Origin: Euzebya tangerina | GTDB lineage: Bacteria; Actinomycetota; Nitriliruptoria; Euzebyales; Euzebyaceae | DNA length: 64,000 nucleotides | Direction: 5' to 3' | NCBI RefSeq assembly: GCF_003074135.1 | Contig: NZ_PPDK01000001.1 | Span: 1,364,001 to 1,428,000 of the forward strand | Shown: positions 33,870-44,399 of the stretch, piece after piece | Numbering within the stretch: position 1 is the first letter of the stretch | Layout: each line of letters begins with the position of its first letter | Notes under the pieces: model-generated | Seen by the model: the letters and a program-made list of their open reading frames with translations, nothing else | Told to the model about the DNA's origin: nothing | Databases searched by the model: none | Made by a program: the position numbers and the translations under genes

Positions 33870-35390
33870 ATGAAGATCAGGGGTCCGCGGGACAGCGAAG
33901 CTGCAGGTCAGGCTGCAGTTCGCTCACTCGCGTGGGCCCGCACTGACGGGGATGATGCGGATCCGGTTCGTACCGCGATCGAGGCGTTTGTCTCCGTCGA
34001 TCGGGCCATGGCTGTGGCGCTCCGGGCCCTGGCCGCGGCCGAGCCCGAGCATGGGGTGCCGGCCGACCGGCTGGTCGCCCTGGCCGCCAACGTGGCCGGC
34101 TGGGACGTCGGGTTCTGCATGCGGGCCATCGAGGTGCTGGCGGCCATGCCACTGACGTGGCAGGCCTTTGATGAGGGGCGGATCTCCTGGTCCCAGCTCC
34201 GCGGCATCATCAGCGCCGCAAAGGCCCTGCCGGTCGCCGACCGGGAGACGCTGGATGACCAGCTCACCGGTCTGGTCGACAGCAACAACCGGGCCGAGCC
34301 CGAGCGGCTGCCCGATGTGGCGGCTGATCTGGCCCGCCGACTGGCAGATGCCCGGCAGGCTGAGCGGGAACAGGCCCAGGCCGAGCAGTCCTTCATCCGC
34401 TTCCAACCCTCTCTGCTGGGTGGCGCCGACTTCTACGGCCGCGGTGATGATGACCAGATCGCCACCCTGACCGCCGCCCTTGACGCCGCCGCTGACCCAC
34501 CCGTAGCAGACGACGACGATCTGCCCACCGATACTCAGGGCCGACCGGTCCCTGCTGCGTGGCGGCGTCACACCGCCCGCGCCACCCAACGGATGGAAGC
34601 GCTGCGCCGCATCGCCGCTCACAGTCTCGCTGGTCGTGCCCAAGGTACCGCCCGGCCATCCATCACCGCGGTCGTCGACATCACCGACCTCACTCCACAT
34701 CGATCGGCCAGCGTGGGTGGCGCACCGAGCCATCGAGGATCGTCTGAATTTGGAGCGGCCCCTCGATCCCACGACGCCGAATCGAGATCGGACCAGTCCG
34801 ACGTGTTGAGCCGGGTGCCGAATGCGGCGCCAGCGGCAACGGCTCGGATGTTGTGGAACCTCGCCGGTGGCCGGCGGCCGCTCTCGACTGCAGCGGTGCG
34901 GATGTTGGCCTGTGATGCCAGCCACACCCCACTCCTGACCGACGGCACCAGGCTCTTGGCCATCGGCGACGCCTATCACCCGATCTCGAGTGGCCTCCGA
35001 CGCGCCGTCACGACCCGCGATCAGGGCTGCCGGTTCCCGGCATGCCGGGCACCAGCCGCCCACACCGATCTGCACCATGTCATCCACCGCGCCGAGGGTG
35101 GCCCCACCGAGGCGGCCAACCTGGTCGCGCTGTGCCGCCCCCACCACCGCCTGGTCCACCAGCACGGCTGGACCCTCACCCTCGCCCCCGACGGCAGGCT
35201 GGATCTCAAACGGGGCCGCTGGCACCTCACCAGCCAGCCTCGCCTCCGCCCACCCCCACCAAGCCGTGCTGCCTCGCACTCCGGCGACCCGCCGAACGGA
35301 TACCGACAAGCCGCCCGCCATCGCCGAGACGGGCCCGCACACCAAACGGGCGCCGATCCTCCAGGCCAGTCCGTGCCGCTGCCCTTCTGA
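33870..35390 (+). CDS. DUF222 and HNH endonuclease domain protein
   Basis: A 506-residue protein of the DUF222-HNH family, common and multi-copy in actinomycetes. Residues about 20-330 form the helical DUF222 region (SVDRAMAVALRALAAAEPEH, ISWSQLRGIISAAKALP). The HNH domain is near 380-430: RDQGCRFPACRAPAAHTDLH, then HVIHRAEGGPTEAANLVALC and RPHHRLVH, with Cys pairs for zinc and the His-Asn-His catalytic set. The C-terminal tail is low-complexity. The family is often linked with mobile or selfish DNA, but no terminal repeats are visible. TAGACT lies seven bases before the ATG. Confidence 0.88.
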   Translation: MKIRGPRDSEAAGQAAVRSLAWARTDGDDADPVRTAIEAFVSVDRAMAVALRALAAAEPEHGVPADRLVALAANVAGWDVGFCMRAIEVLAAMPLTWQAFDEGRISWSQLRGIISAAKALPVADRETLDDQLTGLVDSNNRAEPERLPDVAADLARRLADARQAEREQAQAEQSFIRFQPSLLGGADFYGRGDDDQIATLTAALDAAADPPVADDDDLPTDTQGRPVPAAWRRHTARATQRMEALRRIAAHSLAGRAQGTARPSITAVVDITDLTPHRSASVGGAPSHRGSSEFGAAPRSHDAESRSDQSDVLSRVPNAAPAATARMLWNLAGGRRPLSTAAVRMLACDASHTPLLTDGTRLLAIGDAYHPISSGLRRAVTTRDQGCRFPACRAPAAHTDLHHVIHRAEGGPTEAANLVALCRPHHRLVHQHGWTLTLAPDGRLDLKRGRWHLTSQPRLRPPPPSRAASHSGDPPNGYRQAARHRRDGPAHQTGADPPGQSVPLPF

Positions 35391-35493: not shown

Positions 35494-36009
35494 TCAGCCC
35501 AGGTCCCTGACCAGCAGCCAACCTCTCGCCACGGACACGGACCGTGAGCCTTCGGAGCGCCGGCCCGCCACAGTGAGTGAAGGCTGCAAGTCGGCTCGCC
35601 AGGCGTCGCCAGGGGGCCTGACATCCCGCGCTCTCGCCCACTCGACCCCAGCCCGCAGGTCGCCGATCGCTGCGCGGGGGATGACAACCGGATCAAGACG
35701 AGAGAGCGGCGAGACGGGAAGGTCATCCCGGCCGTAGATGACCTCACCCGTCGTGCGCATCTCGAGCAGCCTGACGACGGCGCCGGTTCCTAGTCGCTGT
35801 TCCTCTGTTGCGAGGTGAAGGGTCTCCGCGGACGCCGACCACCGCAGCCACAGGGGAACGGAGTCCAGCAGCGGGGAGAGCCGGCGAACAGCTCCGATCC
35901 GCAGCGACTCACCTGACCGATCCTTGGCCGAGACGACGACCTGGCTTGCGCCGCCCACTGCATCAGGCCGCAGCCGGAATGAGCCACGAATCTGCGGGCC
36001 GCAACCCAC
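35494..36009 (-). CDS. Truncated paralogue of the adjacent 808-residue membrane protein
   Basis: This 171-codon frame starts with GTG six bases after the stop of the 808-residue gene. Residues about 10-118 closely resemble that protein's residues about 690-800: RRLSPLLDSVPLWLRWSASA against ARLLPLLDSVPLWVRWSATA, and RLDPVVIPRAAIGDL against RIDPVVVPRDALDEL. The remainder (about 119-171) is unrelated basic sequence. It has no signal or membrane segment, so as it stands it could not be placed outside the cell. It looks like the remnant of a tandem copy rather than an independent gene, although translation by reinitiation is possible. Confidence 0.6.
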   Translation of the reverse strand: MGCGPQIRGSFRLRPDAVGGASQVVVSAKDRSGESLRIGAVRRLSPLLDSVPLWLRWSASAETLHLATEEQRLGTGAVVRLLEMRTTGEVIYGRDDLPVSPLSRLDPVVIPRAAIGDLRAGVEWARARDVRPPGDAWRADLQPSLTVAGRRSEGSRSVSVARGWLLVRDLG

Positions 36010-36015
36010 GAGCGG

Positions 36016-38442
36016 CTACTGGCCACTGCCGTCGGGCAACTCGTCCAGTGCGTCTCGCGGTACCACGACAGGGTCGATTCGCGACAGAAGCGAGATGGGC
36101 AGGTCATCGCGGTCCCTAAGCACCCGCCCGGTGGTGCTCATCTCCAGCAACCGCACGACCGCAGAGCCATCATCCGCGCCCGAGATGACTGCGACGTGCA
36201 CCGTCGATGCGGTAGCGGACCAGCGAACCCACAACGGAACCGAATCGAGCAACGGCAACAACCGGGCGACGTCGCCAATCCCAATCTCTGGACCGGAACG
36301 GTCGATCTCGGCGACCACAAGCTGGCTCGGACCGCCTTCCGGCTGATCCCCGAGGCTCACCGCGAACGTCACGTAGGTTCCGTCTGGCGAGAGTTGAATG
36401 GACTCGGCCTGGACAGTCTCGTCAGCGGATCCGTTTGACTCCACCACACTCACCTCGCCGGGACGGGCCACGTCGACCACGGCAACTCGGTCACAGGTCG
36501 TGGGCTCCCGGCCGTCTGGCTCGTCTGATTCGCAGAAGGCCAGGAGGCTGTCGGCCTGCGTGACGTGTCGGAGCGTTCTGGGGGAGACCTCGATCAACCT
36601 GTCGGGCTCCGCTGGATCCCACAGGTGGAGCGGAAGGGCGCCGACCTCTCTGAGCACAGCTAGACCGCCGGGAACGCCGTGAGCCACGGAGAAGCCGGCC
36701 GGCAGCGTGCCCTCGGCGATGACGGCCCCGTCGTGCACCTGGACATGCCGGACCGTGGGCGCACCCGGACCGATCCGATCGCCCGGGTAGTCCACGAGCC
36801 AGACCGTCCCATTCTCGGCTCCAGGTACGGCGTACTCGGCACGGCCGAGGAGCAACGGCCCGGACCCGTCGAGAGATGTCGAGTAGATCTCGCCCCAGCC
36901 CACGACCAGACGGCCACCGGTCGCGATCACCTGGAAGGGATGATCGCCCGGTCGGTCGCCGGCCACCTGAACGCCGGTGGCAGCTGAGCCCGTGGTCGGC
37001 GCGATGTAGGCCACCGTGTCGGGTTGGTCTCGCAGGATCAGGACATCGTCGCTTGTGTTCGACGGCGTCGGGGCCCCGGTGAGGTCAACCGGCGCCCATG
37101 TACACCCGCCCGCCGTGCGCCGACTGTCCACACAGGGCCGGAGGCCGGCAGCGGTCTCGGGCGGCACCGAGGTGGCACTCCGCCGGACCACCACGGTTGC
37201 TCCGCCCGGCACGAACACACCTGGTGCCTGATCAATATCGCTGGACCCGTCCAAGCCAATGCGCTGCAGGTTCCACACCGCATCGTCCGTCCCACCGACC
37301 TCCATGAAGCCCACGTACACGTCCTCGCCGGAGGTCGACCACTCGACGACCTGCGGTGTCCACCCCTCCGCCAGCGGCACGTCAACGACCAACTCCAGAC
37401 CATCACGCGTCGAGTCCCGGTCGCGACTGAGCGCGAAGAACGCTGCCACGGGGACCTCGCCCTCACCCTGGCCGAGGACCAGCAGGTGCCGGCCGTCAGG
37501 CGACAACCGGATGCTCGCGACGCTGGTACCGGGTGAGAGATCTCGGCCGGTCACGTCCCACTGGTCGGCCGACGCCGCCGTGTTCAACACGGTCAGGCGT
37601 TGGCAGTCGTTCTCGCAGAAGGCGACCAGTTCACCGGAGCTGTGCACGTGTTGAACGGGACCGGCGGTGGCGACTCGGTCCAACTCGGTCGGGGCATCCC
37701 GTCGCCAGACCTGGACCTCGGGTGACGCCGAGGCATCCATCGGCACGCCGACCAGTCCATCGGGCACGCCTCGAATCGGGGCCATCCCAGCCGGCAAGGT
37801 CGCCGCCTCGAGCACGGCTCCGCTGGCGGCGTCGACCCGTTCGACCTGACGACGCTTGGCCCCGTTGACCATGTCCACCAACCACACAGACCCATCCTCG
37901 GCGGCCGGGACAAGCCGATGCGACTCGCCCAGGACGATCTGGTCCGTGCCCTCGAGCGTTGTTGAGACGATGGTCCCAAGACCAGTCACGAGGCGATCGC
38001 CCGCAACGACCAGTGGGTGTGGCTCGTGTTGGAGGTCGTCCGGGATGGGGGGATGCACACCCATCGCCGCGCCCTCTCGGACCGTTCGGGCCGAAGGATC
38101 CACCGACGTCAGTCGGTAGGGACGGTCCAGGGTGAGGATGACGTCACCCGAACCCGCGACACCATCCGCGCCTCCGGGCACGTCACTGGCAGCCGGTTCG
38201 TCGACGATCCCGATCGAGTCCGTGTCGAGCCCGGGACGGGCCACCAACGCAATCGAGAGCACGACTACCGCGATCGTTCCGACGCCGAGCACGTTGCGTC
38301 GTACCCGTCGTTGCCGATGCCGAACGCGCAGAGCAGTTGGCGAGGGGCGCTCCTCATGAGGCAGCGCGGCCATGAGGTCACGGCTCGCCCTCCGAGCGAG
38401 CAGATCCAGTTCTGGTGCCTCTGGGCCACCGTCATCACTCAT
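36016..38442 (-). CDS. One-TM protein with duplicated beta-propeller-like outer domain, partner of ECF sigma factor
   Basis: An 808-residue protein of no named family that I know. Residues 1-48 are cytoplasmic and Arg-rich, 51-68 a membrane helix (VLGVGTIAVVVLSIALVA), and the rest is outside. The outer part consists of two related halves, about 143-415 and 503-795: DRLVTGLGTIVSTTLEG against GRLVVGWGEIYSTSLDG, GSVWLVD against GTVWLVD, LVAFCENDC against LLAFCESDE, and RLSPDGRHLLVL against QLSPDGTYVTFA. The strand-rich repeats suggest beta-propellers. ATG overlaps the sigma-factor stop by four bases, so by position it could be an anti-sigma or sensor protein, but it lacks a recognisable zinc anti-sigma motif. 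Confidence 0.7.
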   Translation of the reverse strand: MSDDGGPEAPELDLLARRASRDLMAALPHEERPSPTALRVRHRQRRVRRNVLGVGTIAVVVLSIALVARPGLDTDSIGIVDEPAASDVPGGADGVAGSGDVILTLDRPYRLTSVDPSARTVREGAAMGVHPPIPDDLQHEPHPLVVAGDRLVTGLGTIVSTTLEGTDQIVLGESHRLVPAAEDGSVWLVDMVNGAKRRQVERVDAASGAVLEAATLPAGMAPIRGVPDGLVGVPMDASASPEVQVWRRDAPTELDRVATAGPVQHVHSSGELVAFCENDCQRLTVLNTAASADQWDVTGRDLSPGTSVASIRLSPDGRHLLVLGQGEGEVPVAAFFALSRDRDSTRDGLELVVDVPLAEGWTPQVVEWSTSGEDVYVGFMEVGGTDDAVWNLQRIGLDGSSDIDQAPGVFVPGGATVVVRRSATSVPPETAAGLRPCVDSRRTAGGCTWAPVDLTGAPTPSNTSDDVLILRDQPDTVAYIAPTTGSAATGVQVAGDRPGDHPFQVIATGGRLVVGWGEIYSTSLDGSGPLLLGRAEYAVPGAENGTVWLVDYPGDRIGPGAPTVRHVQVHDGAVIAEGTLPAGFSVAHGVPGGLAVLREVGALPLHLWDPAEPDRLIEVSPRTLRHVTQADSLLAFCESDEPDGREPTTCDRVAVVDVARPGEVSVVESNGSADETVQAESIQLSPDGTYVTFAVSLGDQPEGGPSQLVVAEIDRSGPEIGIGDVARLLPLLDSVPLWVRWSATASTVHVAVISGADDGSAVVRLLEMSTTGRVLRDRDDLPISLLSRIDPVVVPRDALDELPDGSGQ

Positions 38443-38996
38443 CGCGGGTCACCTCCGTCGACGTCCTCGTCCGTGCTGAGCCGCCGGCGAAGACCAGCCC
38501 TGCCCTGATGCAGCAGGGCCTTGGCGGTTCCCTCGGCGATGTCCATCAGGCTGGCCACGTCACGCACCGACCGATCCTCCAGGTAGTGCAGGGCAACGGC
38601 TTCGGCCTGCCGTGGAGGAAGTGACCGGACGTGCTCCCAGAACTCCTCCGACTCCACGGTCGTGTCCAGTTCGAGTGGCTCCACTCGGCGCCGTGAGAGG
38701 CGAAGCACGGCCCGGAACTCCGTCCGCGCACGCCGGAGTCGCGAGCGAGCCAGGTTGACCGCCGCCGTCCGGACCCATCCCGGTGGGTTGTGGACCTCGC
38801 CGGCTGCCATCGCAGCCAGCAGCTTGATGAACGCATCCTGTGTAGCCTCCTCGGCCACGTCGACGCGACCGGACATCACATAGGCAAGGCCCAGCACCTG
38901 CGTGTAGTGCTCGGCGTAGACGCTCTCGAAGTCCTCACCGGGCGCGCCACCCAGTCCCCCGCCGACGTCGGGGTTCTCCCACCCGACATCCGTCAC
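38439..38996 (-). CDS. ECF RNA polymerase sigma factor (SigE/SigM-like)
   Basis: A 185-residue extracytoplasmic-function sigma factor. Sigma region 2 is FESVYAEHYTQVLGLAYVMS with VAEEATQDAFIKLLAAM; region 4 is RSLPPRQAEAVALHYLEDRS followed by VRDVASLMDIAEGTAKALLH. GTG at 38996 is taken as the start because AAGGAGG (39001-39007) is four bases upstream. The frame remains open to 39287 with ATG at 39017, but that upstream part is not sigma-like. It is coupled to the 808-residue membrane protein, a usual arrangement for a sigma factor and its membrane-bound controller. Confidence 0.88.
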   Translation of the reverse strand: MTDVGWENPDVGGGLGGAPGEDFESVYAEHYTQVLGLAYVMSGRVDVAEEATQDAFIKLLAAMAAGEVHNPPGWVRTAAVNLARSRLRRARTEFRAVLRLSRRRVEPLELDTTVESEEFWEHVRSLPPRQAEAVALHYLEDRSVRDVASLMDIAEGTAKALLHQGRAGLRRRLSTDEDVDGGDPR

Positions 38997-39089
38997 CCCG
39001 CCTCCTTCGTGTCGCATGACCGTACGACGCGCGAGCGGCCCGGCGGGGTTTAGTCCGACCTGGAGTCGTTCGCTGCTAGCCTCCGCGAC

Positions 39090-42842: not shown

Positions 42843-44399
42843 TCAGGACCGACGGAGCACGATCAACGAGTCAGTCATGGTGATGATCGTGCCGTCGTGC
42901 CACTGCGCGCGACGCTCGAGCGGCTCGGCGCGCACGACCTGCCAGCCACCCTCCAACTCGAGCGCATTGAGTTGCTCGTCGATGTCCGGGAGGTCGAAGC
43001 CGTCGTGGGCGTGGCCGGGGGTGGCTAGGTGGGAGAGGATCACGTAGGTCCCGCCCCGTGCCACCGCCGCCTTGGCTCGCCGCACGATCTGCTCGCGGGG
43101 GATCTCCACGGGTGAGAGGAGATAGGACGTGGTCACGAGGTCGAAGGACCCATCGACCGTGCCGGTGGCGAGGTCCTGCACCCGGCTGGTGACGAGATCG
43201 GCCACCCCCTCAGCCACGGCGGCGGCGTCCAGGCGGTCCATCGCGGTTCGGGAGACGTCCACCGCGGTCACGTCCCAGCCCTGCTTCGCGAGCCAGATGG
43301 CATCTCCGCCCTCCCCAGCGCCCAGGTCGAGCGCCCGACCCGGCCGAAGGTCTGAGACGGCATCCACCAGACCGACGTTGGGTCGGCCGGTCCACACCTG
43401 GCCTCGCTCGGCGTAGCGGGTGTCCCAGAAGGTCGCCAGGGTCTCGTCCGGATCCGGCTCCCAGTGGGCGTGCGGGTCCTCGCGGTCCACCGTCGTGGGC
43501 TCTGACCGTTCCGGCGTGGGCGGAGGGGTGATGCCAGCGCGCTCCAGCGTGATGGCGATGCCCGCGCGCGATCCGGCAGCCATTGCGGCCAGGACCTGGC
43601 CACCGGGTTGAGCGGAGGAGTCCGGCCAGGCGCAGTCGCCGACAGCCCACAGGCCCGGTAGCGATGTGCGGCCGTCGACGTCGGTGGCGACGAAGTCGTG
43701 GCGACGCTGCAGTGCAAGACCATCCACGGGGGAGGTGCGAGGCTGCGGTGTTGCATGGACGAACACCCCGTCCACCCGCAGTTCGCTGCCATCGGTCAGT
43801 CGGACGGCCACGCCATCAGCGGCGGCATCCGTGCTCGCGACGTCGCTCGGCGAGGCGGTCTGGACCTGATCGGTCCAGCCGGACAGCAGTCCGCCGAGGT
43901 GACCGGCGACGGGCTCGTCGGCGATCACCAGGACCGGCCGGCCGGCGTAGGGAGCCGCGTCGCAGAACGGGCAGCTGTGGGCCTGCCGGCCCCAGATGGC
44001 GGGGAGTCCCGCGATGCGGGGCAGGCTGTCACGGGCACCGGTGGCCAGGACGACATGGCGGGCACTGATCACGTGGTCATCGTGGCTACGGACCAACAGC
44101 CGCCCGTCCGACCCCTCCTCGACGGCGCTGACCATGCCCGTGCGCCTGGCAACGGTTGGCAAGGCGTCGACCTCCGCGCGAGCCGCGGCCAGCAGATCCG
44201 CCGGGTCGGCGCCCTCCCGTGTCGGCACGTTGTGGGCGTGGTCGGTCTCGGCATTGCGCGCTGGGCCGTCTCCGATGATCGTCACGTGGTGCTGGGCGCG
44301 TCCCAGCAGCAGGGCAGCGGCCAGTCCGGCGAAGGAGGCGCCGATGATCACGACGTCGGTGGTGGCGACGTCTGGGGTGGGGGTCTGTGGTGTGTCCAT
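42843..44399 (-). CDS. Bifunctional FAD oxidoreductase (thioredoxin reductase-like) and SAM methyltransferase
   Basis: A 518-residue fusion. Residues 1-310 resemble thioredoxin reductase: FAD motif VVIIGASFAGLAAALLLG (about 16-33), redox pair Cys143-Cys146 in HSCPFCDAAP, and GLWAVGDCAWPD near 250. A short linker leads to a class I methyltransferase (about 325-518) with TFWDTRYAERGQVWTGRPNV, the SAM motif ALDLGAGEGGDAIWLAKQGW and FDLVTTSYLL. The second domain is of the thiopurine/tellurite methyltransferase-like type, suggesting detoxification of a metalloid or thiol compound, which is inference. It lies divergent from an XRE-cupin regulator. Confidence 0.88.
   Translation of the reverse strand: MDTPQTPTPDVATTDVVIIGASFAGLAAALLLGRAQHHVTIIGDGPARNAETDHAHNVPTREGADPADLLAAARAEVDALPTVARRTGMVSAVEEGSDGRLLVRSHDDHVISARHVVLATGARDSLPRIAGLPAIWGRQAHSCPFCDAAPYAGRPVLVIADEPVAGHLGGLLSGWTDQVQTASPSDVASTDAAADGVAVRLTDGSELRVDGVFVHATPQPRTSPVDGLALQRRHDFVATDVDGRTSLPGLWAVGDCAWPDSSAQPGGQVLAAMAAGSRAGIAITLERAGITPPPTPERSEPTTVDREDPHAHWEPDPDETLATFWDTRYAERGQVWTGRPNVGLVDAVSDLRPGRALDLGAGEGGDAIWLAKQGWDVTAVDVSRTAMDRLDAAAVAEGVADLVTSRVQDLATGTVDGSFDLVTTSYLLSPVEIPREQIVRRAKAAVARGGTYVILSHLATPGHAHDGFDLPDIDEQLNALELEGGWQVVRAEPLERRAQWHDGTIITMTDSLIVLRRS

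Follow-up and report, generated by a model that had tools for sequence, protein, structure and literature searches.

The window, by which is meant the whole stretch of 64,000 nucleotides analysed here, carries the gene of an ECF sigma factor that runs directly into the gene of a large membrane protein. The locus raises the question of whether this membrane protein controls the sigma factor and, if so, whether it works in a way already known from other systems.

The two genes and their products

38439..38996, minus strand: ECF sigma factor, 185 aa, GTG start, Pfam regions 2 and 4 only
39001..39007, minus strand: ribosome binding site (AAGGAGG) preceding the sigma gene, read from the sequence
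36016..38442, minus strand: partner, 808 aa, single-pass membrane protein and proposed anti-sigma factor/sensor (ATG at 38442, stop at 36016)
38302..38442, minus strand: cytosolic N-terminus of the partner, residues 1-47, LDLLARRASRDL ... RVRHRQRRVRRN, proposed sigma-binding part (precedes the membrane helix; co-divergence, see below)
38242..38301, minus strand: membrane helix of the partner, about residues 48-67 (Kyte-Doolittle window of 2.38 at residues 50-68)

The product of the upstream gene matches Sigma70_r2 (2.1e-9, residues 27-91) and Sigma70_r4_2 (3.6e-13, residues 119-167), both above the Pfam cut-offs. It shows regions 2 and 4 without region 3, the arrangement by which an ECF sigma factor is recognized, and TIGR02937 passes its NCBIfam cut-off. 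The best NCBIfam model by E-value was TIGR02983 (SigE-fam_strep); membership of this SigE family was rejected, as the score of 94.6 bits lies below the cut-off of 141.55. The group may already be catalogued in the current ECF classification (ECF Hub). This classification of 2021, by Casas-Pastor, is said to comprise 157 numbered ECF groups.

The stop codon of the sigma gene and the start codon of the partner gene share ATGA (38442/38439), the overlap of 4 nt that had been noticed in an earlier, sequence-only reading of this DNA. The partner has a sole strong hydrophobic segment, which starts at about residue 47-50, and the 15 residues preceding it carry a net charge of +6. The short basic cytoplasmic part (about 46 residues) and the one membrane helix described in that reading are thus borne out. 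The same is true of the missing zinc anti-sigma motif: because the first cysteine of the partner is residue 276, HxxxCxxC is absent, and a zinc anti-sigma factor was ruled out. Comparison of the partner with Pfam and NCBIfam gave no family over its cut-off. The sole Pfam hit, HPS6 (E=0.017), was below its cut-off and was rejected, and a whole-partner search of the genome contigs returned no close relatives.

Conservation of the pair

Relatives of the window sigma factor, gathered by sigma similarity alone, are present in 41 of 66 genomes of the class (E<=1e-12) and in 80 of 396 genomes sampled across the phylum (E<=1e-15). The 66 loci examined comprise 40 that come from the class-level search (including one in the window's genome), the window pair with five more loci of its genome, and 20 from the best phylum loci outside the class. 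In 64 of these 66 loci, the sigma gene is followed by one whose product has a short cytosolic N-terminus and then a first membrane helix at residues 36-70; the two exceptions, L056 and L138, may be frame problems. For comparison, the same layout was found at 2-3 of the 22 other ECF sites in the window's genome. Two of these 2-3 sites, L091 and L094, appear to be further members; they were included in the set used for the co-divergence analysis, which holds 66 pairs, nine of them from the window's genome. The genes are closely packed: the intergenic gap is -4 nt in 38 and -1 nt in 11 of the 66 pairs, and lies within -17 to 0 in all but one.

The sequence-only reading had proposed that the gene pair be sought in other genomes, and had named a lack of co-occurrence as the outcome that would speak against it. 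Since such a partner follows 64 of the 66 sigma relatives, the outcome is clearly the opposite.

It should be mentioned that eight more candidate pairs are seen in the window's genome (L076, L084, L085, L086, L087, L088, L091 and L094), with mostly unrelated outer parts. Within the genus, three other genomes gave neither a partner match nor a close sigma relative, and one of them has the neighbouring reductase gene at 59% identity with no sigma operon beside it. This absence means that the pair is not a core feature of the genus.

Variation of the partner and co-divergence with the sigma factor

The N-terminus of the partners in the largest clade follows the pattern LEERLRxSLxxRAxDVxPxPxLWxxVxRRIxRRRR, and that of the group nearer the window pair is roughly LDxxARRAAxAxxxSVA...RRRRR. 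The window N-terminus resembles the sub-family of the nearer sigma relatives only weakly, with 33 of 1000 shuffles scoring equally well, and did not fit the main-clade profile. The N-terminal profile matched no PDB chain, solved anti-sigma factors included, beyond chance; domains of 40 residues diverge fast.

The outer parts are 83 to about 970 residues long. By similarity they group into six clusters, with 23 singletons left over, one of which is the window protein. Pfam domains recognized among them are PD40 propellers, Kelch propellers, AMIN-like, GerMN and LysM. The largest outer parts seen in the family belong to two partners of about 1000 residues (L136:1058-4036, minus strand, and L137:1106-4189, plus strand), of which the one tested has Kelch repeats. 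When the outer-part labels were placed on the sigma tree, 12 changes were counted, compared with a minimum of 6 and about 24 for shuffled labels. Outer parts have therefore been replaced occasionally, though far from randomly.

Over the 66 pairs, with species kinship not factored in, the distances between sigma factors and those between N-termini are correlated at r=0.80, a value reached in 0 of 5000 permutations. In the same proteins, the membrane segment gives a correlation of 0.31 and the outer part one of 0.35, where outer parts that cannot be aligned saturate in the distance comparison. This comparison of three segments within one protein is a useful control. When the largest clade was removed, r was 0.49 for the N-terminus, -0.01 for the membrane segment and 0.24 for the outer part. 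The co-divergence vanished in the more distant half of the sigma pairs (r=0.06), and among the nine paralogues of the window's genome it was not significant (r=0.29; 309 of 5000 permutations). A correlation of 0.82 is reported between ECF sigma factors and class I anti-sigma domains (PMC7406223), and the value of 0.80 found here is close to it. Taken together, the co-occurrence in 64 of 66 loci and the co-divergence of the N-terminus support the reading of the two genes as a signalling pair.

Outer part of the partner

37123..38151, minus strand: outer domain 1, beta-propeller-like, about residues 98-440 (repeat; model pLDDT 63.8, pTM 0.64)
36028..37053, minus strand: outer domain 2, beta-propeller-like, about residues 464-805 (repeat; model pLDDT 66.2, pTM 0.63)

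Residues 98-387 and 464-758 can be aligned over 310 columns with 32% identity (E=5e-26), in agreement with the two related halves that had been seen in the outer part. Both halves were modelled with AlphaFold2 from an alignment of the three window copies only. The models are of moderate confidence and nearly all beta, with about 25 strands each. Foldseek searches of the PDB at E<=0.001 gave 442 matches for outer domain 1 and 321 for outer domain 2. The recognisable ones among the matches listed are beta-propellers, TolB, YncE and WD40 proteins among them, and TolB and other propellers are among the best matches of outer domain 2. The TM-scores are modest, mostly 0.25-0.5, so that the propeller class of both predicted folds is well supported and the blade number is not. 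Structure prediction of the outer part, another of the checks suggested beforehand, thus gave propeller-like models for both halves (pLDDT 64 and 66).

Relatives of the outer domain were found in three class genomes (L104-L106), none of them beside a relative of the window sigma factor. This means that the outer domain is not confined to the present system. One of these relatives (L104:1213-2610, plus strand) has an N-terminal zinc-ribbon-like CxxC and a hydrophobic segment before an outer part related to the propellers of the partner; its contig carries no relative of the window sigma factor.

Candidate promoter of the operon

39023..39053, minus strand: candidate ECF promoter for autoregulation, CTAAACC-N16-GCGTCGTA, ahead of the sigma gene

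This element had no place in the earlier reading. The search covered 330 nt ahead of the sigma match in 53 loci, with single-base shuffles as the control. AACC-N16-CGT occurs in 33 of the 53 upstream regions, compared with 0.2 in the shuffles, and the spacer profile is sharply peaked at this length. The family promoter is roughly CAACCT-N15-GCGTC, for example in L047, L065 and L075, with the -35/-10 spacing of the ECF type. Its presence in 33 of 53 regions points to autoregulation across the sigma family.

The spacer of the candidate promoter in the window is one base longer than that of the family. Its -35 element CTAAACC is also found in two of the nearer sigma relatives, L047 and L126. The strict pattern TAAACC-N15/16-GCGTC has one match in the whole genome, at the window operon, and the reversed control likewise has one; the window copy alone is therefore weak evidence, whereas the family pattern is strong. 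With one genomic match each for pattern and control, nothing can be inferred of a regulon beyond the operon.

Truncated third copy and neighbourhood

35647..35955, minus strand: third, truncated copy of the partner's C-terminus, covering 103 residues (60% identical to residues 703-805, E=1e-33)

The ORF that holds this copy (35494-36009, minus strand) starts right after the stop codon of the partner and had also been overlooked before. Between the remnant and its parent, dN is 0.36 and dS is saturated at about 2.6. These values indicate that the copies diverged mostly as proteins under selection, and that the frame of the partner is real. The third copy is what a tandem duplication and a later deletion have left: the locus formerly carried either another related gene or a longer gene, one end of which survives.

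Two further ORFs of the neighbourhood were characterized by eye. The one adjoining the operon (33870-35390, plus strand) looks like a protein of the DUF222/HNH endonuclease type, and another (42843-44399, minus strand) seems to join an FAD-dependent, thioredoxin-reductase-like portion to a methyltransferase-like one.

Proposed mechanism and alternatives

The operon probably encodes a sigma factor together with its membrane-bound anti-sigma factor; that the partner binds, inhibits and then releases the sigma factor, and what kind of signal is sensed, is what we infer. When there is no signal, the basic N-terminus of about 46 residues would bind the sigma factor and keep it membrane-bound. Outside the cell, the two beta-propellers would sense an extracytoplasmic ligand or the state of the envelope. 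A signal would free the sigma factor, via proteolysis of the partner or a conformational change, and the freed sigma factor would transcribe its own operon, and possibly other genes, from the CTAAACC-N16-GCGTC promoter.

The partner might instead bind the sigma factor mainly as a positive or dual regulator, with a released N-terminal fragment needed for activity in a FecR- or RskA-like manner. A short, basic and co-diverging N-terminus would suit binding in either sense, and RskA is reported to have a dual role (PMC7509140). This alternative is nevertheless considered unlikely, since Tt-TolB, the closest anatomical precedent, is an inhibitor (PMC3397946). The partner might also not bind the sigma factor at all and be a surface protein that is the translationally coupled output of an autoregulated sigma factor. 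Outer parts as varied as six clusters and 23 singletons are what cargo would show, and the strict promoter pattern is found only at the window operon. A conserved cytosolic motif would not be expected of such cargo, yet LEERLRxSLxxRAxDVxPxP is conserved in the large clade. Furthermore, it is the cytosolic end that tracks the sigma factor and the outer part that changes, and the operon partners of ECF sigma factors are commonly anti-sigma factors, which makes the output explanation distinctly improbable.

A degenerating or non-functional locus, in which tandem duplication and deletion left the truncated third copy and possibly a chimeric partner, would account for the remnant directly downstream of the partner. 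It would also fit the three congeneric genomes without a partner match or a close sigma relative, one of which has the neighbouring reductase gene without the sigma operon. But both main frames are long and intact, remnant and parent diverged under selection, and a candidate promoter and a ribosome site are present, so that decay of the locus seems very unlikely.

If the anti-sigma reading is true, a pair annotated as "sigma factor plus hypothetical protein" would be one of many modular surface-sensing switches in the phylum. A peptide of about 45 residues would be enough for testing its sigma-binding part, a promoter is already predicted, and the paralogues within a single genome would supply natural sets of pairs for studying how cross-talk is avoided.

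Comparison with known systems

Class I anti-sigma factors (RsiW, RsrA and RskA type, often zinc-binding) are likewise operon partners of ECF sigma factors, and many are membrane proteins. Their anti-sigma domains average about 101 residues, with a threshold of 50 residues or more (PMC7406223). The window partner differs in lacking HxxxCxxC and in having an N-terminal domain of about 46 residues; with neither the zinc motif nor a domain of at least 50 residues, assignment to class I (ASDI/ZAS) was rejected. CnrY, the class II partner of CnrH, has a cytosolic part of fewer than 50 residues followed by one membrane helix, and class II is further marked by a pair of helices wrapped about the sigma factor. 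The partner falls under the same length limit of the CnrY type. In contrast to this likeness in layout, comparison of the N-terminal profile with the PDB revealed no sequence similarity to CnrY, and the outer part of the window protein is far larger. The class III pair BldN/RsbN of Streptomyces (PDB 6dxo) is similar in being actinobacterial and in having a membrane-anchored anti-sigma factor outside class I; for the window, gene content and sigma families point to an actinobacterial host. The N-terminal profile gave no above-chance PDB match with 6dxo in the library, which is to be read with the fast divergence of 40-residue domains in mind.

SigI is not an ECF sigma factor. The SigI/RsgI system of Clostridium thermocellum consists of many paralogous pairs, with nine RsgI proteins and exchangeable outer sensors (PMC12203970). 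It resembles the present system in the several pairs per genome (nine, against nine candidates here), the single helix, the N-terminal sigma-binding part and the swappable sensors. It differs in its own N-terminal and autocleaving periplasmic domains, to which the partner shows no Pfam match. Classification of the partner as an RsgI was rejected, its N-terminus having no Pfam match to the RsgI N-terminal domain, and no carbohydrate-binding module was found in it.

The closest likeness is to Tt-RpoE1/Tt-TolB of Thermoanaerobacter tengcongensis, in which 2 bp separate the genes and the anti-sigma factor has a membrane helix at residues 39-61 and a TolB-like outer part (PMC3397946). Residues 1-39 of Tt-TolB suffice for a two-hybrid interaction with Tt-RpoE1, and the full protein inhibits transcription by Tt-RpoE1 in vitro (PMC3397946). 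The locus was read in Caldanaerobacter subterraneus (L108), where it was found via the published primer sequences. In this system, the partner lies directly downstream of the sigma gene and has about 39 cytosolic residues, one helix and a TolB-like outer part of about 590 residues, and the sigma factor is autoregulated with a CGTC -10 element. The window pair shows the same anatomy: a sigma gene directly upstream, an N-terminus of about 40 residues, one helix and an outer propeller. The Tt-TolB outer part is weakly similar to those of two partners of the family (E=4e-5 and 8e-5). The differences are that Tt-RpoE1 is only about 25% identical to members of the family and comes from another phylum, and that the window outer part is made of two related propellers. 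Between the N-termini of the window protein and Tt-TolB, the similarity could not be distinguished from shuffles (44 of 500 and 775 of 1000 were as good).

The pair is real and widespread and is most likely a sigma/anti-sigma pair working like the Tt-TolB and RsgI systems. The earlier proposal of an undescribed signalling pair is supported for the pair, on account of the co-occurrence and N-terminal co-divergence, but not for "undescribed", given Tt-RpoE1/Tt-TolB (PMC3397946). An unfamiliar mechanism was likewise too strong a claim in view of the anatomy and the inhibition known from Tt-TolB (PMC3397946). It still applies to the N-terminal domain, which by sequence comparison matches no described anti-sigma class and is the unfamiliar part. 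It is conceivable, though we put this forward tentatively, that the phylum as a whole has a family of anti-sigma domains, about 40 residues long and zinc-free, that belong to none of classes I-III. They would be joined to interchangeable outer sensors (propellers, Kelch, AMIN-like, GerMN, LysM) and form several separate pairs per genome, many of them autoregulated from AACC-N16-CGT. New here are a family of zinc-free, short N-termini, outer sensors that are exchanged in this phylum, a promoter shared by the family, and a double propeller accompanied by a truncated third copy.
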